Positions 4,090 to 42,101 of a DNA stretch of 50,034 nucleotides are shown here, in pieces. Source of the stretch: Candidatus Eisenbacteria bacterium (lineage in GTDB: Bacteria > Orphanbacterota > Orphanbacteria > Orphanbacterales > Orphanbacteraceae); assembly GCA_016867715.1 (NCBI GenBank), contig VGIW01000017.1, forward strand, positions 1-50,034. Direction: 5' to 3'. A program made the translations under genes and the position numbers. The notes beneath the pieces are model-generated. The model worked only from the letters and a program-made list of their open reading frames with translations, searched no databases and had not been told where the DNA came from. Each line of letters opens with the position of its first letter. Position 1 is the first letter of the stretch.

Positions 4090-4740
4090 GTGAAAAGTCC
4101 CTCTCTCGCGTGGGTTGCGCTCGCCGCGCTGCTCGCCGCCGGCTGTTCCGAGCGCGCCCCCGATGAGCCGAACGGAAATGGGAATGGGGGCGGAACGCGC
4201 GACGCCGCGTTCTGGACCGCCGAGGGGTGGAAGCGTTACGGGGATCGGAACTTCTCGGGCGCCGCCGCCGCCTTCTACAACGCGCTCACCAAGGACTCGG
4301 TCTACGTCCCCGCGATCGCGGGAAGGGCTTGGTCGAACCTCGAGCTCGGCTACATCGGTCTCTCCCTCTCGGAGTTCGAGAGCGCGCTCGCCCTCGACAG
4401 CTCTGCGGTCGACTGCTACTACGGCGCCGCGTACATGGCGCACGCGCAGGGTCTTCTCTTTCCGAATCAAGCGCGCACGCGGTTCGAGCAGGCGATCGGC
4501 TTCGCGCAGAAGGGTTTCCAGAGGGGAGGCGGTTCCTTCGTGTTCGCGCGGAACTCCTCCGTCAATTCGGTCAGCCTCCGCGTGCTCCTCGCGCGTTGCT
4601 ACTACGGGATCGGCCAGTACCAGGAGGCGAGGGACATCGTGGATCTTCTCGATCCGAACAACGGTCTCTCCTCGTCGAGCCCGACGTATCTCCGGGATCT
4701 CCTTCTCGCGATCGAGGGGCTGGGGGATCTGGTCTCATGA
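4090..4740 (+). CDS. Exported lipoprotein with TPR-like helical repeats
   Basis: The 216-residue product starts at GTG 4090 behind a GAGGAG ribosome site at about 4075-4080. The N-terminus is a lipoprotein signal: KSP, a hydrophobic run, then a lipobox LAAGC, so the mature protein should start at Cys and be lipid-anchored. After a Gly/Asn-rich linker (NGNGNGGG) come alternating helices with TPR-type spacing, such as WKRYGDRNFSGAAAAFYNAL, ARAWSNLELGY-like segments and ARCYYGIGQYQEA. TPR modules bind proteins, so this may be a scaffold in the periplasm or under the outer membrane. The next gene starts inside this stop codon (ATGA), so the two are co-transcribed and probably translationally coupled. 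The specific function is unknown. Longer upstream frame extensions were not used because they lack a signal peptide. Confidence 0.8.
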   Translation: MKSPSLAWVALAALLAAGCSERAPDEPNGNGNGGGTRDAAFWTAEGWKRYGDRNFSGAAAAFYNALTKDSVYVPAIAGRAWSNLELGYIGLSLSEFESALALDSSAVDCYYGAAYMAHAQGLLFPNQARTRFEQAIGFAQKGFQRGGGSFVFARNSSVNSVSLRVLLARCYYGIGQYQEARDIVDLLDPNNGLSSSSPTYLRDLLLAIEGLGDLVS

Positions 4741-7700
4741 GGCGGCGCGTCCTTTTCGCTTGGGGAGCAGTGCTCGCCGCGGCGCTCGCGGCGGCCGGGC
4801 CGGCGTTCGCCCGTTCGGCCGCGCCGGTCGGCGCGGATCTCTTCTCGAACCCGTACGAGATCGCGGAAAAGGAGGATGTCGCGTACGTTCTCTACCCTTC
4901 GGGCCTCGCGGTCCTCGACATCCGTTCGGCCCTGCGGCCGAGCCTCATCTCAAGCGTGTTTCTTCCCGGGGAGGCGGGCGGCCTTCTTTTACGCGAGAAC
5001 TATCTCTACGTAAGCCGCGGAACGGGCGGGCTCTTCACGATGAGCCTCGACGACCCGTTCCGCCCGGCGGTCGTGGACACGCTTCCGGCCCCCTCGAGCT
5101 TCGGGCGGCTGGATCACGGGTGGAATCGGCTTCAGGTCGCGGACCGGGACAGCGGGCTCATCGTCATCGACATCCAGAACCCGGGGGCCCCGCAGCGTCT
5201 CTACAAGTATCCGATCGGCGAGCCGATCCAGGATATCCGGGTCCGCCGCGCGGTCGCCTCTCTCGCGTTGGAGCGGGGGGGTCTCCGCACGTTCGACATC
5301 TCCCACTACATTCCGGTTCCGCTCGCCCATCGGCCGGAGCTCGCGGGCGCGGCGCATCTCGACTTCTCGTTCGCGACCCTCTATGTCTCCCGCGGCGGCG
5401 ACGGCATCTCCGCGGTCGATGTCTCCGACTCAACGAACCCGGTGATCCTCCCCGACGCCTATCGTCCGTCCGGCGCGACCGGCGACGTGGCGGCGGTCGA
5501 CTCATTCCTCGTGGCGGTTCACGACGCGCGGGAGCTTCATCTCCTTCGGCGCGGGGGGCTCTCCGCGGGGGCGCTGGCCGTGAGCGCGGTGGACACGACG
5601 CTCGGGCGTGTTCTGGCGAAGGAAGGGCGGGTCTATTCGACCGGGCTCGACCGGGGGCTCCGTCTCGTGGAGCTCGTCATCCCCCAGAACGCGACCTATG
5701 TCGCCGGCTTCGCCGTCCCCGGCGCGGTCGTCTCCGACGTCGCCGTGGAGGGGGACACCGCCTTTCTCGCCGCCGGCGCGAAGGGCGTGGGCCTCGTCTC
5801 GCTCACGGACGAGCTGAACCCCGCCCTTCTGGGTTTTCTCCCCACGGTGGGGAGCGTCAATGCTTTGGAAGTGAATGATCGATACATCTATGCTGCGGAG
5901 ACCGGCCAGGGTCTCCGCGTGTACGACGCCGCCTCGGGGGCCGCGGTCGGGTTCGCTTCGACCCCGGGGACGCAGGGGCTTCTGGTCGACGAGTCCCTCG
6001 CCTACATGTGCGGGGGATCGGCCGGGCTCTCCATCCTCGACGTCTCCAACCCGGCGGGGCCCGTCCCCGTCGGCTCGATCGGGACGGGAGGGGCGGCCGG
6101 ACGCTCGACGCGTGCGGTCGCGGTCTTCGGAAACCTCGTCGCGCTCGCCGAGGGGGACGCCGGCATCCGTCTCGCGGACGCCGCGAACCCCGCGGCCCCC
6201 GCGGTTCTCGGTGCGTACGATCCGGCCGACTACGTGATCGACGTCGCCTTTTCGGAGACCGGGGTGCTCTACGCGCTTCTCCGATCGACCGGGCTTCTTG
6301 TTCTCGACGTCGCCGATCCCGCCCGCCCCGACTCGGTCGGTCTCGTGACGATCTCCGGTTCCCTTCTTCGAAACGTGAAGAAACTGGGGAGCGTTCTCTA
6401 CGTGACCGAATCGCTCGGGGTTATCGATCCCGGCTTCGTCCACGTGATCTCGGTCGCCGACCCGCGCGTTCCAAGGGTTCTCCTCCGGATTCAATCGCAG
6501 GGGTTCCCGGGGAACCTCGCGACCGGAAGGGAGCGCGCGTACGTCGCCGCCGGGTCGGGCGGGTTCGAGATCTTCGGCACGTTCGAGGACTACGGGTTCC
6601 TCCCGATCGGTTCGTACGATCCCCACGCGCCGATCGACATCGCCTCCGCGTCCGAGACGCGTGTCCTCGCGACCGATCGCGAGGGGAAGATCTGGCCGTT
6701 CTACTTGCAGGAAGGGGAGGCGCTGAGCCGCGGCGAGCCGTACGACCTCGGCCGGGCCGCGGCGGACGTCGTGTTGCACGGCACGCGGGCGTTCGCCTCG
6801 ATCGCCGGCGAAAGCCTTCTCGTGGAGCTGACCCTCCCGACGCCGGACATCGCCCTGCTCGCGCGGACCATCGAGCTTCCGGGAGAGGCATCGGGGCTCG
6901 CGATCCGGGATACGCTCCTCTGCGTCGCGATGAAGAACCACGGTTTCGGCGTCTACAGCATCGCGCGCCCGGAGGCGGTGGTCCCGCTCGGCTTCTTCCG
7001 GAGCGGCGGGACGGAGAACTCGGATCTCGCGGGGGCGGGGGCGGAGCGGATCGCCCTGGGGGGGAACCTCGCGTTCGTCGGGACGGCGGACAGGAGCCGC
7101 GGGCTCTTCATCCTCGATCTCGTGGACCCGTCTGCTCCCGTATTTCGGAGCATGTTTCCGACGACCCACCGCGTGCTCGACGTCGCCGCCTACGCGGGGC
7201 ACGTCTATCTCGGGCAGCGCCAGATCGGGACGACCATCGTCAACGCCGAGAATCCGGACAACCCGACGCAATCCATCCTCCGGCCGGACCTCTCCTTCGT
7301 CCGGCGTATGCGCGTCGTGAACGACCATCTCTTCTGCGCGAGACGGACCGAGGGGATCGACGTCTACGATCTCGCGAACCCGGCGAACCCGGTGCGCGTC
7401 TGGCGGGGGAGAACACCGGAGACGGCGTTCGACCTCGCGGTGTTCGGCACGTATCTCGCCGAGGCGGACGGGAGCGCCTTCCGCATGTACCGCCAGGATT
7501 TCGTGAACGCGGATCAGACCGCGCCGAGCTACACGATCGGGATCCTCTCGAACCCCTTCGCGAACGCGTTTCTCGATTTCGTGATCGTCTCCTCCGAGGC
7601 CCTGATCGAAAAGCCGGAGGTCCGCTTCACGATGGGCGAGGTCGATACATCGCTCGCGGTCTTCCGCATCGACGTCGCCCGGAACGTCTACCGGGCCGTG

Positions 7701-8471
7701 TACCGGCTCGCCGAGACCGGCATCGGAACCGTGAGCGTCTCGGGCGAGGATCTCGCCGGAAACAAGTCGGACACGAGCAAGGAGTTCTCGGTCTCCTACG
7801 TCCGCGGATCAAAGGGGGGATCGATCTACTCCCCGTCCGGCAAGGTCGAAGTTCGGATTCCTCCGCGCGAGTCGGCGGGGGATTCCTACGTTCTCCTCAC
7901 GAAGGTTGAGCGATCGGAGATTGAAAGCGAAACATCCTGCCCGCTTCCCGCTCCGGCCCTCGGTCCGTTCCGGCTCTCGCTCGGTGAGGCGGACGGGCCG
8001 GTCGCGGTGTTCGTCCGGGATGTCCCTCTCGATCCGGAGGGAAACGCGCCTTCCCTCTTCCGGATGGAGGGGGACGCGTGGATCCTCTCGGCGTCCGAGC
8101 ACGACGCGGCGCGCGGCAGCCTGAGAGGCGCGCTCCCCGGCTCGTCGGTCTTTCTTCTCTCGCACGAGGCGTCCGCGCCGGCTCCGGCACTTCCCGCGCT
8201 TCGCCTCGAGCCGAACCGCCCGAACCCGTTCAACCCGAACACAACCCTCGTGTTCTTCCTCTCGAAAGAGGTCCGCGCGCGCCTCTCCATCTACGATCTC
8301 TCGGGGCGACTCGTGAGACACCTCGCGGACGGCGTCTTCCCGGCGGGGAGTCACGCGGTCGCGTGGAACGGCACCGACTCGTCCGGGCGCCGCGCGGCGA
8401 GCGGCGTCTACTTCGCGCGCGTCGAGGCGGCCGGCCTCTCCGAGACCCGCAAGATCGTGCTCTTGAAATAG
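4737..8471 (+). CDS. Giant secreted LVIVD-repeat beta-propeller protein with FlgD/type IX-like C-terminal domain
   Basis: ATG 4737 overlaps the lipoprotein stop and opens a 1244-residue protein. The first 25 residues (RRRVLFAWG, hydrophobic run, PAFA) form a signal peptide. The body is a long series of about 40-45-residue repeats with cores such as LAVLDIRS, LIVIDIQNPG, ISAVDVSDSTNP, LSILDVSNPAGP, LLVLDVADP, LFILDLVDPS and IDVYDLANPANP. This is the LVIVD repeat, which forms beta-propellers on extracellular proteins. The last 85 residues contain PNRPNPFNPNTT, IYDLSGRLVRHL, WNGTDSSGRRAASGVYFAR and end in RKIVLLK, matching the FlgD-Ig/type IX sorting-like domain. It is likely displayed on the cell surface or secreted. 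The coupled lipoprotein suggests a two-part surface assembly, which is inference. No enzymatic motif was seen. Confidence 0.88.
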   Translation: MRRRVLFAWGAVLAAALAAAGPAFARSAAPVGADLFSNPYEIAEKEDVAYVLYPSGLAVLDIRSALRPSLISSVFLPGEAGGLLLRENYLYVSRGTGGLFTMSLDDPFRPAVVDTLPAPSSFGRLDHGWNRLQVADRDSGLIVIDIQNPGAPQRLYKYPIGEPIQDIRVRRAVASLALERGGLRTFDISHYIPVPLAHRPELAGAAHLDFSFATLYVSRGGDGISAVDVSDSTNPVILPDAYRPSGATGDVAAVDSFLVAVHDARELHLLRRGGLSAGALAVSAVDTTLGRVLAKEGRVYSTGLDRGLRLVELVIPQNATYVAGFAVPGAVVSDVAVEGDTAFLAAGAKGVGLVSLTDELNPALLGFLPTVGSVNALEVNDRYIYAAETGQGLRVYDAASGAAVGFASTPGTQGLLVDESLAYMCGGSAGLSILDVSNPAGPVPVGSIGTGGAAGRSTRAVAVFGNLVALAEGDAGIRLADAANPAAPAVLGAYDPADYVIDVAFSETGVLYALLRSTGLLVLDVADPARPDSVGLVTISGSLLRNVKKLGSVLYVTESLGVIDPGFVHVISVADPRVPRVLLRIQSQGFPGNLATGRERAYVAAGSGGFEIFGTFEDYGFLPIGSYDPHAPIDIASASETRVLATDREGKIWPFYLQEGEALSRGEPYDLGRAAADVVLHGTRAFASIAGESLLVELTLPTPDIALLARTIELPGEASGLAIRDTLLCVAMKNHGFGVYSIARPEAVVPLGFFRSGGTENSDLAGAGAERIALGGNLAFVGTADRSRGLFILDLVDPSAPVFRSMFPTTHRVLDVAAYAGHVYLGQRQIGTTIVNAENPDNPTQSILRPDLSFVRRMRVVNDHLFCARRTEGIDVYDLANPANPVRVWRGRTPETAFDLAVFGTYLAEADGSAFRMYRQDFVNADQTAPSYTIGILSNPFANAFLDFVIVSSEALIEKPEVRFTMGEVDTSLAVFRIDVARNVYRAVYRLAETGIGTVSVSGEDLAGNKSDTSKEFSVSYVRGSKGGSIYSPSGKVEVRIPPRESAGDSYVLLTKVERSEIESETSCPLPAPALGPFRLSLGEADGPVAVFVRDVPLDPEGNAPSLFRMEGDAWILSASEHDAARGSLRGALPGSSVFLLSHEASAPAPALPALRLEPNRPNPFNPNTTLVFFLSKEVRARLSIYDLSGRLVRHLADGVFPAGSHAVAWNGTDSSGRRAASGVYFARVEAAGLSETRKIVLLK

Positions 8472-9865: not shown

Positions 9866-10417
9866 ATGTGGCTGGCGAAATGGATCGGCGTCTTGGCGAT
9901 CGGGTCCTGGCTCTTCGTTCCGTGCGTCCACGGTGAGACCTATGTGGAGCTGGACGTGGACGGGATTCTCGGAAACGGACCGGATACGGTGGCCGCCGGC
10001 GTGGGCGACACGGTGCGGGTCGAGGTCTATGTGCATCACAACGTGCCGCAGGGTCGTCTCTGCCACGTGTGGGTGCCGCTGTGTGCAGAACAGGTCGTCC
10101 CGGATTCCATCGAGTTCTGGACGGAGCCGTGGGTGAACTACACAGCTCCCGCGGACACATGCCTGGGCTTGTACGGAAGCGATGTACCCAACTTCTGTGA
10201 CAACCAGATCGATTCGCCCGTGCACCTTGCTTCCGCATGGTACGTGGTGGGGGGATGTCCGGGTACGGTACGGGTCGACGATCTCGATTCGTATTGGATC
10301 GATTCCGATTTCAACGCGGGGGCGTTCTCCGGTTCGATCCCCGTCTGGCTGTGCGCGGGGACTCCGACCGGGACTTCCGAGAGCTCCTGGGGGAGCATCA
10401 AAGTTCTCTTTCGGTAG
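9866..10417 (+). CDS. Small secreted protein with C-terminal WGxIKxLFR tail
   Basis: A 183-residue exported protein with a good ribosome site (GGGAGGGA, six bases before ATG 9866) and a signal peptide (MWLAKWIGVLAIGSWLF, cut likely after VHG). The mature part starts as a beta-strand (YVELDVDGILGNG) with VAAGVGDTVRVEVYVHHN. This resembles the Ig-like fold of cohesin or choice-of-anchor domains that bind or present surface complexes. Several Cys residues (LCHVWVPLC, DTCLG, NFCDN, GGCPG, LCAG) suggest disulfides in the periplasm or outside. The last residues, SSWGSIKVLFR, match the end of the unrelated beta-helix protein encoded at 35821-37266 (TTWGGIKSLFR). A shared end on different proteins suggests a sorting or anchoring tag. 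Function is unknown. Confidence 0.72.
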   Translation: MWLAKWIGVLAIGSWLFVPCVHGETYVELDVDGILGNGPDTVAAGVGDTVRVEVYVHHNVPQGRLCHVWVPLCAEQVVPDSIEFWTEPWVNYTAPADTCLGLYGSDVPNFCDNQIDSPVHLASAWYVVGGCPGTVRVDDLDSYWIDSDFNAGAFSGSIPVWLCAGTPTGTSESSWGSIKVLFR

Positions 10418-35820: not shown

Positions 35821-37266
35821 CTACCGGAACAGGCTCTTGATCCCTCCCCACGTCGTGTGCTCGACGGAGATCTCGCCGCACGCGTCGCATCCGATCCCGA
35901 ACGCGCCGACGAGGCCGCATCCGGCGGCCGCCGCGCACGGAGAGTCCGCGCAGAGCGTGAAATCTCCATTCTCGGGATCGCAGAAGAGAGGATCGGCGGA
36001 GAAGTTCCCGTTCTGGCCGTGCTGATCCGCGATGCAGCCGACCCAATCGCCGCCGGCGTTGCCGTAGACGTTCGCGCACTGAAGCGTCGCGGTGGACTGA
36101 TTCACGCAGGAAACCGCCTCACCCTCCGCACTCAACGCGAGAATCGTGTTCTCGATCTGGGGGTCAGACCCCCGGTAGGAGTAAAGGCCTCCCCCCTCTA
36201 CTGTCCCTGCATTCCCATAGATCGTGCAGTTCCGAATCACGGGATCCGAAATCAGCTCCGCGACCACCCCCCCACCAACCGGCGCGCGGTTCCCGAAAAC
36301 GAGGCATCCTTCCATCTGCGTGTCGGCGTCCTCGTAGAAATGGATCCCCCCACCAATCTGCTGCGCCTCATTCCTCGATATCTCGCAGTTCTGCACCAAC
36401 GTCGTCGATCGGTCGACACGCACACCGCCGCTTTTCGCCGCTCGGTTCTCCGTCACGATACAGTCAATGAGACGGGACCGCGGGCCGTTGCATTGGAGGA
36501 AGAGAATCCCTCCCCCCTGACCTTGAGTCGAATTCCCCCGAAACGTACACTCGATGAAGCCGGTTGAGTTGTCGAACGCGCGAACGCCTCCGCCATTCCC
36601 CTGGGCGGAATTGTTCAGGAATACACACCGGCGGAAACTCCCAAAGCTATCCTCACCAGCGAGAGCACCGCCGCCCCAGTTGTCTGCCTGGTTCTCTTCG
36701 AAGACACAGTCCACGAACTGCGGCGATGAGTTGTAGATACCCGCCCCGGCACCCCGATAGGCTCTGTTGGAACGAAAGACACACGCCTCCACACGGGAGG
36801 ACGCAGACAAGTAGCAGACAATGCCTCCCCCCAACCAATCGGCTCGATTCTCCGTCAGGACGCAGTTCCGGATGAGAGGAGAGGAACCTTGGAGGAAGAC
36901 GCCGCCCCCATGATGGTCCGGATGGCTTCCCTCCGCGTGCCCCCCCGTGAGCGTCAATCCCTCGATCGTCGCTTGGTTGTCGACGACCTCGCCAATCAGC
37001 ACCCTGCCGACGCCCCGCGCGTCGATCGTCGCGCAGGTCGGGTCGCCGGTCGCGCTCCGCAGACAGACTCCCGACTTCATGTGGATGTTCCGCTCGACGT
37101 ACACCCCACAGGATAGCGAGACCGTATCCCCCGCCGCCGCCGAGTCGATCCCCGCTTGAATCGTCGGCGCGTCGCCGGAACCGTCGGGGAGGATGTGCCA
37201 GGTGCGGGCGAGAGGGGAATCGGCTGTGAGAAGGACGGCGGCGAAGAGGACGAGCGAGCGGCGCAT
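35821..37266 (-). CDS. Secreted parallel beta-helix protein with C-terminal WGxIKxLFR tail
   Basis: I start this at ATG 37266, six bases after AAGGAGG; longer extensions lack a signal peptide. The 481 residues begin with a signal peptide (RRSLVLFAAVLLTADSPLA) and the motif RTWHILPDGSGDAPTIQAGIDSAAAGDTV. About ten right-handed beta-helix rungs follow, rich in GGG and cysteine (GGGVFLQGSSPLIRNC, GGGIVCYLSAS, GGGALAGEDSF, GGGVRAFDNST, GGGIHFYED). Such folds are seen in polysaccharide-acting enzymes and adhesins. The end, TTWGGIKSLFR, matches the end of the protein at 9866-10417, unlike the FlgD-like end of its close paralogue next door. It lies 14 bases after that paralogue, so both share one transcript. 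Function is unknown. Confidence 0.8.
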   Translation of the reverse strand: MRRSLVLFAAVLLTADSPLARTWHILPDGSGDAPTIQAGIDSAAAGDTVSLSCGVYVERNIHMKSGVCLRSATGDPTCATIDARGVGRVLIGEVVDNQATIEGLTLTGGHAEGSHPDHHGGGVFLQGSSPLIRNCVLTENRADWLGGGIVCYLSASSRVEACVFRSNRAYRGAGAGIYNSSPQFVDCVFEENQADNWGGGALAGEDSFGSFRRCVFLNNSAQGNGGGVRAFDNSTGFIECTFRGNSTQGQGGGILFLQCNGPRSRLIDCIVTENRAAKSGGVRVDRSTTLVQNCEISRNEAQQIGGGIHFYEDADTQMEGCLVFGNRAPVGGGVVAELISDPVIRNCTIYGNAGTVEGGGLYSYRGSDPQIENTILALSAEGEAVSCVNQSTATLQCANVYGNAGGDWVGCIADQHGQNGNFSADPLFCDPENGDFTLCADSPCAAAAGCGLVGAFGIGCDACGEISVEHTTWGGIKSLFR

Positions 37267-37280
37267 GCCATGCCTCCTTC

Positions 37281-38930
37281 TCAGCGAACGAGGATCACGC
37301 GCTTCGTTTCGGCGGGATCGCGATCCGCCGCGCGGACGAAGTACACCCCCGCGGCAACGTCGCGCCCCGCTCCGTCCTTGCCGTCCCAGAGGATGCTTCC
37401 CTCCGCGCCCGGGGCGGCGAGCGCGCGCACGAGCCGGCCCGCGAGATCGAACACCTCGATCGTCGAGGAAGCGTTTCCGGGGAGCGAGTACCAAAGGACC
37501 GCGCGCCCATTCGCCGGGTTCGGCGACACGAACACGCCGAACGCGCGGCGCGGAAGCGGTCCGGACTCCGCCACCGCGGTCAGCACGCACCCCTCTCCGA
37601 ACGCACCGATCGGCCCGCAGCCGGGCGCGTTCAGGCAGGGGGAAGCGGCGTCGAGCGTGAAGTCGCCGTTCTCGGCGTCGCAGGAGAGCGGATCGGCGGA
37701 GAAGTTGCCGGCCACCCCGTGCTGGTTCGCGACCCACCCGATCCAATCTCCTCCTTCGTTGCCGAAGAGGTCGCAGCACTCCAGCACGGGCCCGAACGGA
37801 TCCGAGAAACTAGAGATCGCCTCTCCTCCGAGGCCGAACGCCAGAATGCTCGAGGTGATGGTCGGTGGATCGCAAGACCCATACTCCTCGCCGTACCCAT
37901 TGGCGTAGATGCAGCTCCCCTCGTCAGTCGAGGCGTTCCCGAAGAACGTGCATTCCTCCACCTGAAGCGGGTTGGGGAGACAAGGGAGGTCGTCGGCGAA
38001 GGAGTAGGTGAGATACAACCCGCCGCCTGTCCATGCGTCGTTCCCGACGAACACGCATCGTCTCGCCACGATCGGCTCTTCCGTAATCGCGTAGCAGGAG
38101 TAGACCCAATACACCCCACCCCCCATCCAGCTCGCGTGGTTCCCCTCGAAGAGGCAATCCTCGAACGTCGCATCGCCCCACTCGAAACACGCGGCGCCGC
38201 CGCCCGTTTGCGCCCGGTTGTTCCGGAAGACGCAATCCTGAATCACGCCTCTCGGCTGGCCGCAGAAGAGCCCTCCGCCGAAGCCCGTCGCGGTCCCCCC
38301 GTTCGAGTCGAAGAAGCAGCCGCGGAGGCCAAGCTCCGGCGCTTCGCTCCCCGCCTCGACGTACGCCCCCCCTCCATAGCCTCCCGATCGGGTCGTGTTC
38401 GAACGAAAGACGCAGTCGCGAATCTCGGGGCCGCTTCCATGCGAGTAAAGGCCGCCCCCGCGGGCCGCGTGGTTCCCCTCCAGAACGCAAGTCCGGATCG
38501 TCGGAGACGATGAGGACGCGCATCGGATCGCGCCGCCGTACCAACCGAGCGCTGCGTCCGCGTATCCCCCCGTGATCGTGATCCCCTCGAGAACCGAAGC
38601 GCGCCCTTCTCCGGAACCGAAGAAGAAGCCGCGGTGCTGATCTTCAGCCGACCCCTGGCAATCCAGCACGCAGAGAGAGGGATCTCCACTCGCCGAGCGG
38701 ACGACGATCGCTTTACCCATGAACTGGATGTCCCGGTTCCCGTCGCCTGAGTAGGTTCCGTTCCCGAGCGAGACCGTGTCCCCCGCCGCCGCCGAGTCGA
38801 TCCCCGCCTGAATCGTCGGGGCGTCGCCCGTGCCGTCGGGGAGAATGTGCCACGTTCGGGCGCATGCGGAAGGGGAAGAAAAGAGGAGAGTGAAGAGAGA
38901 GAGAAGCCCTGCGGAAAGGGAAGAGCGCAT
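37281..38930 (-). CDS. Secreted parallel beta-helix protein with FlgD/type IX-like C-terminal domain
   Basis: The 549-residue paralogue of the next gene: signal peptide (MRSSLSAGLLSLFTLLFSSPSACA), then RTWHILPDGTGDAPTIQAGIDSAAAGDTV, the same entry sequence, followed by beta-helix rungs with GGG turns and cysteines (GGGLYSHGSGPEIRDC, GGGAYVEAGSE, GGGLFCGQPRG, GGGVYWVYSCY). The end is different: SPNPANGRAVLWYSLPG, IEVFDLAGRLVRALA, LWDGKDGAGRDVAAGVYF and the final KRVILVR form a FlgD-Ig/type IX sorting-like domain. The start at ATG 38930 has GGAGG just upstream. Surface display or release is likely. The role may be carbohydrate or host-surface interaction, as inferred from fold only. Confidence 0.85.
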   Translation of the reverse strand: MRSSLSAGLLSLFTLLFSSPSACARTWHILPDGTGDAPTIQAGIDSAAAGDTVSLGNGTYSGDGNRDIQFMGKAIVVRSASGDPSLCVLDCQGSAEDQHRGFFFGSGEGRASVLEGITITGGYADAALGWYGGAIRCASSSSPTIRTCVLEGNHAARGGGLYSHGSGPEIRDCVFRSNTTRSGGYGGGAYVEAGSEAPELGLRGCFFDSNGGTATGFGGGLFCGQPRGVIQDCVFRNNRAQTGGGAACFEWGDATFEDCLFEGNHASWMGGGVYWVYSCYAITEEPIVARRCVFVGNDAWTGGGLYLTYSFADDLPCLPNPLQVEECTFFGNASTDEGSCIYANGYGEEYGSCDPPTITSSILAFGLGGEAISSFSDPFGPVLECCDLFGNEGGDWIGWVANQHGVAGNFSADPLSCDAENGDFTLDAASPCLNAPGCGPIGAFGEGCVLTAVAESGPLPRRAFGVFVSPNPANGRAVLWYSLPGNASSTIEVFDLAGRLVRALAAPGAEGSILWDGKDGAGRDVAAGVYFVRAADRDPAETKRVILVR

Positions 38931-39056: not shown

Positions 39057-42000
39057 TTACCGGATGAGGACGAGGCGGCGGGTCTCCTCGAGGCGGTCGA
39101 ACCGAAGGCGATAGAGATAGACGCCGGAGGCGGCCCGGCGTCCGCCCGCGTCGGTCCCATCCCAGACCGCCTCGCCGGGACCTTCCGCCGCGTCGTCGTC
39201 GAGAAGGACGCGGACGAGCGCGCCGGAGAGATCGTGCACGGCGAGATGGGCGCGGCCCGCGCGCGGAAGGGAGAACGAGATCCGCGTCACGCCATTGAAT
39301 GGGTTCGGGGCGTTCCACCCGAGAAGGAAGCGCGGGGGAGGTCCCGCGTCCTCCGGGATCCCGGTCGATTCGGCGACCGCGGCGATCCGCACGAGGCGCG
39401 GACTCCCGCTTGTCCCCCCCTCGGCGGCGTAGAGGTTTCCGAAACCGTTGAACGCGAGACCGTCCGATCCTTCAAGGCTCGAAAATCCGCTCGCGAAGAG
39501 AGTCGCGGTTCCGTCCGGCCCGACCCGCACGATCTCCTGCCGGGCGGGGTTCGCGACGAAGAGGTCGCCGCCGAAGCCGCCCCGCTCGTCGAACGCGAGG
39601 GCGGTGGCGCCGGAGAGAAGGGCAGCGTTTTCGGCGAACACGCTCCCCGCCCCGGTCGAATCGATGCGGAAGATCTTGTGATCGCCTCCGGTCGCGTAGA
39701 GCGCACGCCCGAAGGAATCGCCGTTCGAGAAGGCGAGACCGCGGACTCCGGAGAAGGAACCGGCGAACGGGGTCTTCGTTCCGCTCGCGCCGACCGCCCA
39801 GATCGAGTCTCTCGACGAAGCGCCGGCGTACGCGAGCCCTCCGAACGCTCCGATCGTGTCGACGGCGAGCGCCCATCCGCTCGTCGCGCTCGGGAACGAC
39901 GCCACGAGCCGCACGAGCCCGGCTTCCTCTCCGTCCGCCGCGAGACGAAAGATTCTCGATCGGTCGGAGACGAGAAGGTCGCCCCCGAAGGCGCCGCCCG
40001 GGCGGTCCCACGCGAGCGCATCCGGCCTTCCGATGAGCGAGTCGGCGAGGATCGTCTCGACGAAGCCCCGGTCGTTCCACAGAAAGACTCGATCCCGCGT
40101 CCGGTCTCCCACGAGGATCCTTCCGTTCTTTCCTCGGTCGAGAGAGACCGGGCGATCGAGATTCCGGTTCGGAAGCGTCTCCGCGTAGAACCCGGGCGGA
40201 ACCGCGATCGGTCCCGTCCCCTCGTCGGTCCGGAAGAAGAACGAGAAGCGCGCGCCGAGCGAATCGCCGGAGAGATCGCGCGCGCTCGCCTCGATCGTCA
40301 CCGTGTACGTCGTGTGGTCGGCGAGATCGGAGGCGGGCGTGAGATGAAGCGTCCTCTCCGTCCAGGAGGTCGCGTAGGCCGCGGCGGGGGAGATGTCGAG
40401 CGCGGCCTCGACCGACGCGCGGTCCATCGGTTCGGTGAAGGTGATCGCGATCCGCGGGCGGAGCGTGGGGATCGCCTGGTCGTGCGCCGGCCAGGTCGCC
40501 TCGATCCACGGCGCGAGGTCCGGGGGGGACGCCGCGAGAAGGGCCGCCGAGAGGCCCCTGATCACGATCGGAACGACGCCGCTCGAGGGGATCGCGAAGC
40601 TCCTTTCGCTGAGGAGGTCGTAGACGGTCCCGCCCGGAAGGTCCGGGTCGACGAGGAGCGTGTCCGCATCTCCCTTCGTGTTGAGGAGGACGAGGACGGT
40701 TGCTTCACCCGGCAACTTTCGATAGTAAGAATAAATCCCGGCCCGGTTCGCGCTCTGGATCTCCGTCTGCCCGCCGCGGCGAAGGGCCGGGAACTGCCCG
40801 CGAAGGCCGTTCAGTTTGCGAATCCATCGGTAGAGGGGAGCCGTCTGGTCGAAGTTGTCCCCCTCCGAGGGGCCGAAGTCCCACGATCCATCCCACATGT
40901 CCTCGCGGTTCCACGGGTCGCCCCCGCCGTCGAACTCCTGCTCGGTCCCGTAGTAGAGGCACGGGATGCCGATCGAGGTGTAGAGCCACGCGAGGGCGAC
41001 GCGCGCCTTCGCCTCGTCCCGGGCGGCGGCGGAGCCGAAGCCCATGAACCGCGCGACATCGTGGTTGTCGAGGAAGAGGACGAGGCGGTTTCTCGCGCTC
41101 GGATCGTAGTGGACCGAGTCGGCGTACTGCCCGGAGAGCCACTCGGTCGCGCCGCCGTCGCGGAAGACGGCGTTCGTCGTGAAGTGCATCGGGAAACGGA
41201 GAACCGAGTCGAGCGCGAAGGGACCGCCCGCCTTCGTTCCGGTGTAGATTCCGTTCTTCGAGTTCGAGCCGTCGAAGACCTCGCCGAACTGGAAGAAGCG
41301 CTCCTTGCCGAGCGAATCGGCGGCGAAGGCGCGGACGGCGGGGGCGAACTCCTGCCAGAAGGAAAGCTCGACGTGCTTCACCGTGTCGATGCGGAAGCCG
41401 TCCGCGTCGGTTCTCTCGATGAGCCAACGGTGGGCGTCGATGAGCGCGCTCCGCACCGCCGGCTCTTCGGTGCGGAAGTCGTCCAAGCCGAAGAGCTCGC
41501 CGAGGATCTGCTCCGGATCGACCCAATTGGATATGTGTCCATTGTTGTGGTACCAAGAGAGATTGTCGAAGGGGGGCGCGGTCTTGTTCGACGCGTTCTT
41601 CCATCGAAGGACATAGGCGCCGGGATTGCGAAAACCCGGATAGTCCGGGTCGGCCGAGTCGATCAGGTCGCCGCCGTGGTTCGCGATCACATCGAGGATC
41701 ACGTTGAGGCCGCGCGCGTGCGCCTCGTCGATCAGTGAACGGAGCGCCGTCTCGCCGCCGAGGTGCGGAGCGAACTGGTAGAAGTCCTGGATGTGATAGC
41801 CGTGGTAGGCGGCGTACGCGTTCTTCTGCACCGGCGAGATCCAGATCGATGTCGCGCCGAGGCCGCGGATGTAGTCGAGCTTCTCTTCGATCCCCGCCCA
41901 GTCGCCGCCGTGGATGCGCGCGCCGTCGGATGGGTCATAGGATCCCTCGATCGTGTTGTTCGAAGGGTCGCCGTCGAAGAAGCGGTCGGTCAGGATCTGG

Positions 42001-42101
42001 TAGATCGATTGGTCGCGCCAGTCGTCCGGCGACGGCGTCCCCGCTCCGACAAAGGGCGCGGCGGCGAAGAGCCCCGCCAGGAGCATTCCCGAAGCGCGCA
42101 C
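39057..42101 (-). CDS. Secreted GH13 alpha-amylase-family enzyme with Big_5-like, propeller-like and type IX-like C-terminal parts
   Basis: A 1014-residue exported enzyme with GTG start 42101 (AAAGGAAA upstream) and a short signal peptide ending GAG. The GH13 domain has DVIANHGG, the nucleophile Asp in GFRIDTVKH (about residue 236), the acid Glu in FGEVFDG (about 272) and the third Asp in FLDNHDVARF (about 346), so it should cleave or transfer alpha-glucans. The C-terminal region of the fold (SYYRKLPGEATVLVLLNTKG) follows. Next is a Big_5-type Ig region (RPRIAITFTEPMDRASVEAAL), then an NHL/propeller-like section with repeats such as GGDLLVSDRSRIFRL and GGDLFVANPARQEIVRV. The end (NAPNPFNGVT, VHDLSGALVRVLL, WDGTDAGGRRAASGVYLYR, RRLVLIR) is a type IX/FlgD-like tail. 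The GH13 call is firm; the exact substrate is not. Confidence 0.92.
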   Translation of the reverse strand: MRASGMLLAGLFAAAPFVGAGTPSPDDWRDQSIYQILTDRFFDGDPSNNTIEGSYDPSDGARIHGGDWAGIEEKLDYIRGLGATSIWISPVQKNAYAAYHGYHIQDFYQFAPHLGGETALRSLIDEAHARGLNVILDVIANHGGDLIDSADPDYPGFRNPGAYVLRWKNASNKTAPPFDNLSWYHNNGHISNWVDPEQILGELFGLDDFRTEEPAVRSALIDAHRWLIERTDADGFRIDTVKHVELSFWQEFAPAVRAFAADSLGKERFFQFGEVFDGSNSKNGIYTGTKAGGPFALDSVLRFPMHFTTNAVFRDGGATEWLSGQYADSVHYDPSARNRLVLFLDNHDVARFMGFGSAAARDEAKARVALAWLYTSIGIPCLYYGTEQEFDGGGDPWNREDMWDGSWDFGPSEGDNFDQTAPLYRWIRKLNGLRGQFPALRRGGQTEIQSANRAGIYSYYRKLPGEATVLVLLNTKGDADTLLVDPDLPGGTVYDLLSERSFAIPSSGVVPIVIRGLSAALLAASPPDLAPWIEATWPAHDQAIPTLRPRIAITFTEPMDRASVEAALDISPAAAYATSWTERTLHLTPASDLADHTTYTVTIEASARDLSGDSLGARFSFFFRTDEGTGPIAVPPGFYAETLPNRNLDRPVSLDRGKNGRILVGDRTRDRVFLWNDRGFVETILADSLIGRPDALAWDRPGGAFGGDLLVSDRSRIFRLAADGEEAGLVRLVASFPSATSGWALAVDTIGAFGGLAYAGASSRDSIWAVGASGTKTPFAGSFSGVRGLAFSNGDSFGRALYATGGDHKIFRIDSTGAGSVFAENAALLSGATALAFDERGGFGGDLFVANPARQEIVRVGPDGTATLFASGFSSLEGSDGLAFNGFGNLYAAEGGTSGSPRLVRIAAVAESTGIPEDAGPPPRFLLGWNAPNPFNGVTRISFSLPRAGRAHLAVHDLSGALVRVLLDDDAAEGPGEAVWDGTDAGGRRAASGVYLYRLRFDRLEETRRLVLIR

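Follow-up and report, generated by a model that had tools for sequence, protein, structure and literature searches.

A short C-terminal tail shared by unrelated exported proteins, a probable sorting tag in genomes that encode the T9SS translocon SprA

Why should two exported proteins with unrelated bodies, encoded on opposite strands of one 50,034-nucleotide stretch of DNA (the window, meaning the whole stretch analysed), end in almost the same residues? The first, here W-tail protein 1, terminates in ESSWGSIKVLFR immediately before its stop codon, and the second, W-tail protein 2, read from 37266 to 35821, terminates in TTWGGIKSLFR. The original prediction had taken this shared end on dissimilar bodies for a second class of sorting tail beside the FlgD/type IX-like tails of the same window. 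Both tails are present (Table 1), and their bodies are indeed unrelated, one being a cohesin-fold β-sandwich and the other a right-handed β-helix. The AlphaFold2 model of protein 1, together with a structure match (best PDB match, the cohesin 6kgc; E 5.5e-6), identifies its body as a stand-alone cohesin-fold domain; cohesins usually serve to hold dockerin-bearing enzymes. Such stand-alone proteins with W-tails form an expanded family (protein 1 and loci L002–L005, L010, L065, L066, L080, L085, L087 and L088), with tandem arrays in genomes G002 and G005. A six-frame scan for tails of this kind at stop codons found none in the window beyond these two. The type A tail on the LVIVD-repeat protein indicates that the other tail class is also in use in the window.

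Table 1. Features of the window, in forward-strand positions
Feature	Position	Strand	Basis
LVIVD-repeat protein with T9SS type A tail (domain 8220–8459), upstream of protein 1	4227–8471	+	TIGR04183 match
W-tail protein 1: signal peptide, cohesin-fold β-sandwich body and W-tail; 183 aa	9866–10417	+	ORF, AlphaFold2 model
Signal peptide of protein 1, MWLAKWIGVLAIGSWLFVPCVHG; inferred cleavage site	9866–9934	+	Hydropathy score; helix 4–16 in AlphaFold2 model
W-tail of protein 1, PTGTSESSWGSIKVLFR; W..R core 10388–10414, stop 10415–10417	10364–10414	+	Profile, DNA pattern, AlphaFold2
W-tail protein 2: signal peptide, right-handed β-helix (PF13229) and W-tail; 481 aa	35821–37266	-	ORF, Pfam
W-tail of protein 2, EISVEHTTWGGIKSLFR; stop 35821–35823	35824–35874	-	Profile, DNA pattern
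Signal peptide of protein 2, MRRSLVLFAAVLLTADSPLA; inferred cleavage site	37207–37266	-	Hydropathy score
Tandem paralogue of protein 2, with T9SS type A sorting domain in place of the W-tail	37281–38930	-	37% identity, E 4e-77
T9SS type A C-terminal domain of the paralogue	37290–37529	-	TIGR04183, E 1.4e-7
α-Amylase-like protein with T9SS type A tail (39069–39308), adjoining the β-helix pair	39057–42101	-	TIGR04183 match

The W-tail comprises 17 residues at the extreme C-terminus, with the consensus (P)-T-[AGS]-[TV]-E-x-[STA]-[ST]-W-G-x-[IV]-K-x-[LM]-[FY]-R. When the genome of the window was searched with protein 1, matches were limited to its last 17–20 residues and fell in unrelated ORFs. 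The original prediction had proposed a proteome search for further members; a 13-row tail profile returned 53 matches in this 3.5-Mb genome, 43 of them at E < 0.001, and many more were found elsewhere. At the DNA level, a degenerate pattern encoding W-G-x-[IV]-K-x-L-[FY]-R-stop hit 49 sites with up to two mismatches, against a single site for the reversed control. Tails read from 46 ORFs of the same genome give T-[AGS]-[TV]-E-x-[STA]-[ST]-W-G-x-[IV]-K-x-L-[FY]-R-COOH. Across 124 distinct tails from this and related genomes, Glu at position −4 is kept in 115, Gly in 110, [IV] in 118, [FY] in 121 and Arg in 113; Trp was demanded by the pattern, which allowed Lys or Arg at the Lys position, where only Lys occurred. 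The tail ends exactly at the Arg position in 113 of the 124. Three tandem paralogues (L037/L056, G000:C13:20674-22605) are an exception to this strict C-terminal position, their W-tails being extended by 3–4 residues (WGKVKGLFRKVL, WGGIKNLFRRVFR and WGQVKKLFRDLF). Conservation holds for the residues but not for third codon positions, which vary freely; it is frame-locked, which argues for selection at the protein level and rules out a DNA-level element at gene ends.

Export signals and diverse bodies accompany the tail. By a simple hydropathy and charge score, a Sec-type signal peptide is found on 104 of 112 complete carrier ORFs (93%), compared with 12 of 27 other window ORFs under the same score and the same free choice of start (Fisher p = 8e-8); the score is crude, not a trained predictor, and some of the 27 control ORFs encode secreted or membrane proteins. 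Neither outcome that the original prediction named as refuting it came about: further members are many, and none of the carriers was clearly cytosolic. One carrier locus without a signal peptide, L009 (G000:C106), holds a W-tail remnant at 1400–1600 directly behind what by eye is an IS3-type transposase ORF, and a carrier gene seems to have been disrupted there. Another, L013:1470-1569 (G000:C1:32398), is an orphan W-tail fragment that follows the stop of an apparent nuoN in another frame. The 124 carriers fall into 35 body clusters that are unrelated at E 1e-4, and their bodies include β-helices as well as CHRD, lamin-tail, NHL and PPC domains. A family of 26 proteins of ~240 aa (L038–L049 and relatives), all W-tailed and rich in conserved Cys and Trp, has about ten copies in the genome of the window; the scan assigned it to no obvious Pfam family. 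Neither NCBIfam nor Pfam offered a model covering the W-tail in the carrier scans, and TIGR04183/PF18962 matched none of the 51 W-tail proteins scanned. These signal peptides, the 35 clusters and the missing TIGR04183 matches, together with the tail exchange described below, support the proposed second class of sorting tail.

The relation of the W-tail to the type A domain is most directly displayed by protein 2 and its paralogue, which lies directly upstream on the same strand. Their 37% identity spans the whole β-helix, and the alignment stops at GLVGAFGIGC / GPIGAFGEGC; beyond this point protein 2 has 21 residues containing the W-tail and the paralogue a TIGR04183 type A domain. We extended the comparison to 46 β-helix paralogues from 9 genomes, 25 with W-tails and 21 with type A domains. 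On a maximum-likelihood tree of their bodies the tail label changes 13 times, against a mean of 15.4 for shuffled labels (75 of 500 shuffles as low), on a tree whose support is weak outside its strong branches and whose bootstrap had not settled; the strongly supported branches alone force at least 3 changes. In genome G213, a type A protein (L232) and a W-tail protein (L233) are sisters at 100/97 support. The tail label is thus clearly not simply inherited with the body, and the two tails interchange almost at random. Since W-tail and type A domain replace each other on the same bodies, both are best read as sorting labels; the exchange shows a sorting label, not one machine that reads both tails. 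Two β-helix paralogues (L205 and L206, G003) represent a third state: they carry neither tail and stop where the helix ends.

Modeling predicts a shape for the tail that is unlike a folded domain. AlphaFold2 models of protein 1 and of the 238-aa protein L038, whose bodies are unrelated, both consist of a folded body, then a linker of low confidence and finally an isolated helix, which covers residues 175–181 in protein 1 and 230–237 in L038, about from the W to the F of the tail. Tail pLDDT is about 46–61 in both models, a low value that is expected for a free peptide. Among 94 distinct tails the hydrophobic moment peaks at 110 degrees (0.67 versus 0.41 for shuffled columns; 9 of 200 shuffles as high); at strand angles it does not stand out. 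No transmembrane segment was found: the most hydrophobic 15 of the last 40 residues score a median of 0.78, with 4 of 124 tails above 1.6. The W-tail is predicted to be a flexible linker that leads into an amphipathic helix of 7–8 residues standing free of the body. Where a type A signal would be a β-sandwich, the two modeled bodies carry a linker and a short helix, at low confidence.

The W-tail occurs well beyond the genome of the window. It is present in 7/7 genomes of the window's phylum (one family), with 25–76 matches each, in 8/8 genomes of a second phylum (that of G277), with 11–37 matches each, and in 9 more genomes spread over 6 other family groups. Among 283 genomes from elsewhere it was detected in at least 11, in 8 family groups, the per-genome tail counts in this sample being lower bounds from a model trained on one phylum: many tails of G213 and G216 lack the upstream TATE part and keep only the core W-[GA]-x-[IV]-K-x-x-Y-R. 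The tail has dialects: LFR prevails in the window's own phylum (F in 72/79) and MYR or LYR in that of G277 (Y in 27/36).

The original prediction had suggested a dedicated processing enzyme as the partner of the tail. Our genome searches, aimed at T9SS parts, did not find one; what co-occurs with the tail is SprA, the outer-membrane translocon of T9SS. SprA scored over the cut-off in all 20 W-tail genomes tested, which also all encode PorV-family proteins (7–16 copies) and type A tails (TIGR04183; 40–102 matches each), with 100 type A matches at E 0.001 in the genome of the window. At E 1e-20, SprA was found in 83 of 290 sampled genomes, including all 18 W-tail genomes of the sample; outside the window's own family it was found in 11/11 tail genomes versus 76/283 (p = 3e-7, relatedness ignored). 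This co-occurrence may reflect shared ancestry of related phyla. The other 65 of the 83 SprA genomes are without the W-tail as the model detects it, so SprA is not sufficient for the tail. The copy number of PorV-family proteins did not single out a shuttle, being the same in tail-positive and tail-negative SprA genomes. Proximity of W-tail genes to type A genes (within 2 kb in 9/50; p = 0.08) was in weak, non-significant excess, and shared operons were rejected; so was the TATE linker as a common sortase site at the start of type A domains, as the type A linkers of the same genome are without TATE. In four genomes of different family groups no tail-specific gene was found beside sprA, where the neighbors look by eye like LptF/LptG-type permease and nusA-type genes. 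The placement of sprA between two LptF/LptG-like permease genes (by eye; L239:4336-13146, L241, L242 and L243) is itself a conserved neighborhood.

Taken together, the W-tail is very probably a sorting tag of some kind. We lean towards the narrower view that it is a minimal C-terminal tag, interchangeable with the type A domain and read by T9SS. The carrier would be exported by Sec and fold in the periplasm; an outer-membrane receptor would then bind the exposed helix through its aromatic/aliphatic face, the invariant Lys and the terminal Arg, and the bound protein would be passed on to the cell surface. The receptor would most likely be SprA together with one of the many PorV-family shuttles, with the W-tail standing in, in minimal form, for the folded type A domain. 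A T9SS route is the most economical one because the domain that the W-tail replaces is a T9SS signal, because type B domains are a case of different signals being served by different shuttles (PMC12618676), and because the sole sequence-conserved contact of type A C-terminal domains (CTDs) is a functionally important Lys near the C-terminus (PMC10994853). In solved complexes SprA and PorV contact a large folded CTD surface, which counts against a T9SS reading of so short a tail (PMC10994853). The more specific proposal, that in several uncultured phyla a type IX-like route uses a dedicated shuttle to accept a bare 17-residue helical tag, making the W-tail a third class of T9SS signal that has lineage dialects and can do without a folded domain, is evenly poised. 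T9SS signals known so far are folded β-domains. Their folded nature and their length, 43–55 residues in the shortest reported (PMC11969387), likewise weigh against T9SS as the reader.

A less probable, though serious, alternative is that in the periplasm or outer membrane the tag is read by another receptor, or by a protease, that merely occurs in the same phyla as SprA, in which case the exchange with type A domains would mark a change of destination instead of an equivalent route. The tail has no T9SS-like fold, its carriers lack TIGR04183 matches and 65 SprA genomes do without it, all of which suits a separate receptor; the dialects (LFR versus MYR) would fit a receptor co-evolving on its own equally well. 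The perfect nesting of the tail within SprA genomes (18/18) speaks against it, as does the failure of both the sprA neighborhoods and any library run on the carriers to indicate a candidate. It is improbable that the tail is a surface-binding peptide, a cationic-aromatic amphipathic helix held non-covalently in the outer leaflet or on surface polysaccharide after export by some other route. The helix predictions, the moment peak at 110 degrees and the pairing of Lys and Arg with Trp/Phe agree with such a peptide, but it would leave the crossing of the outer membrane unexplained, together with the near-invariant W, G, K, [FY] and R and the fixed C-terminal position; far more sequence change would be tolerated in a helix that binds lipid. 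A classical anchor signal of the PEP-CTERM/exosortase, GlyGly-CTERM/rhombosortase, MYXO-CTERM or LPXTG type is very unlikely: it would likewise place a short C-terminal tag on many carriers, and among the 51 carriers scanned there is one choice_anch_W match (NF041928) and one relative of the PEP-CTERM protein ScyF, but it needs a transmembrane segment before the basic end, which the hydropathy of the last 40 residues does not provide, and the library scan of the carriers returned no such anchor model. Coincidence, shared ancestry of the bodies or a DNA-level element can be dismissed, for although true paralogues do exist among the carriers (the 124 include clusters of 26, 18 and 18), the 35 unrelated clusters, the single control site, the free wobble positions and the prevalence of signal peptides already refute them.

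The W-tail offers a means of recognizing, in several uncultured phyla, exported proteins that current libraries miss: dozens in each genome, most of them without a known function. If the favored T9SS reading is true, its carriers are likely surface proteins; the folded CTD would then be dispensable and a minimal signal defined, and recognition by SprA/PorV would be directly testable with a 17-residue peptide.

Among known systems, PEP-CTERM/exosortase, GlyGly-CTERM/rhombosortase and MYXO-CTERM resemble the W-tail in having dozens of carriers per genome that share only a short C-terminal tag. In these signals, as in LPXTG signals, a transmembrane segment stands ahead of a basic end; the W-tail, by contrast, has no hydrophobic segment. 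The type B CTD (TIGR04131), with its PorP/SprF-like shuttles, sets a precedent for a second signal class with a shuttle of its own (PMC12618676). It differs from the W-tail in sequence and in its length of 150–235 residues (PMC12618676), and TIGR04131 gave no match in the NCBIfam scan of 51 carriers. The short type A CTDs of Prevotella intermedia (PMC11969387) are likewise shortened T9SS signals that keep only the CTD end, although at 43–55 residues they form a three-stranded sheet with motifs B, D and E, none of which the W-tail has. No description of the W-tail was found in the open-access papers searched, which is weak evidence of novelty. The type A domain (TIGR04183/Por_Secre_tail, PF18962) is a folded β-sandwich of ~70–100 residues, whereas the W-tail has ~17, is predicted to be helical and lacks both a TIGR04183 match and the GxY motif. 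Yet both are C-terminal, sit on signal-peptide proteins with diverse bodies in the same genomes, swap on β-helix bodies, and have a basic end with a conserved Lys close to the C-terminus. The W-tail is a new class within a known kind of C-terminal sorting tags.
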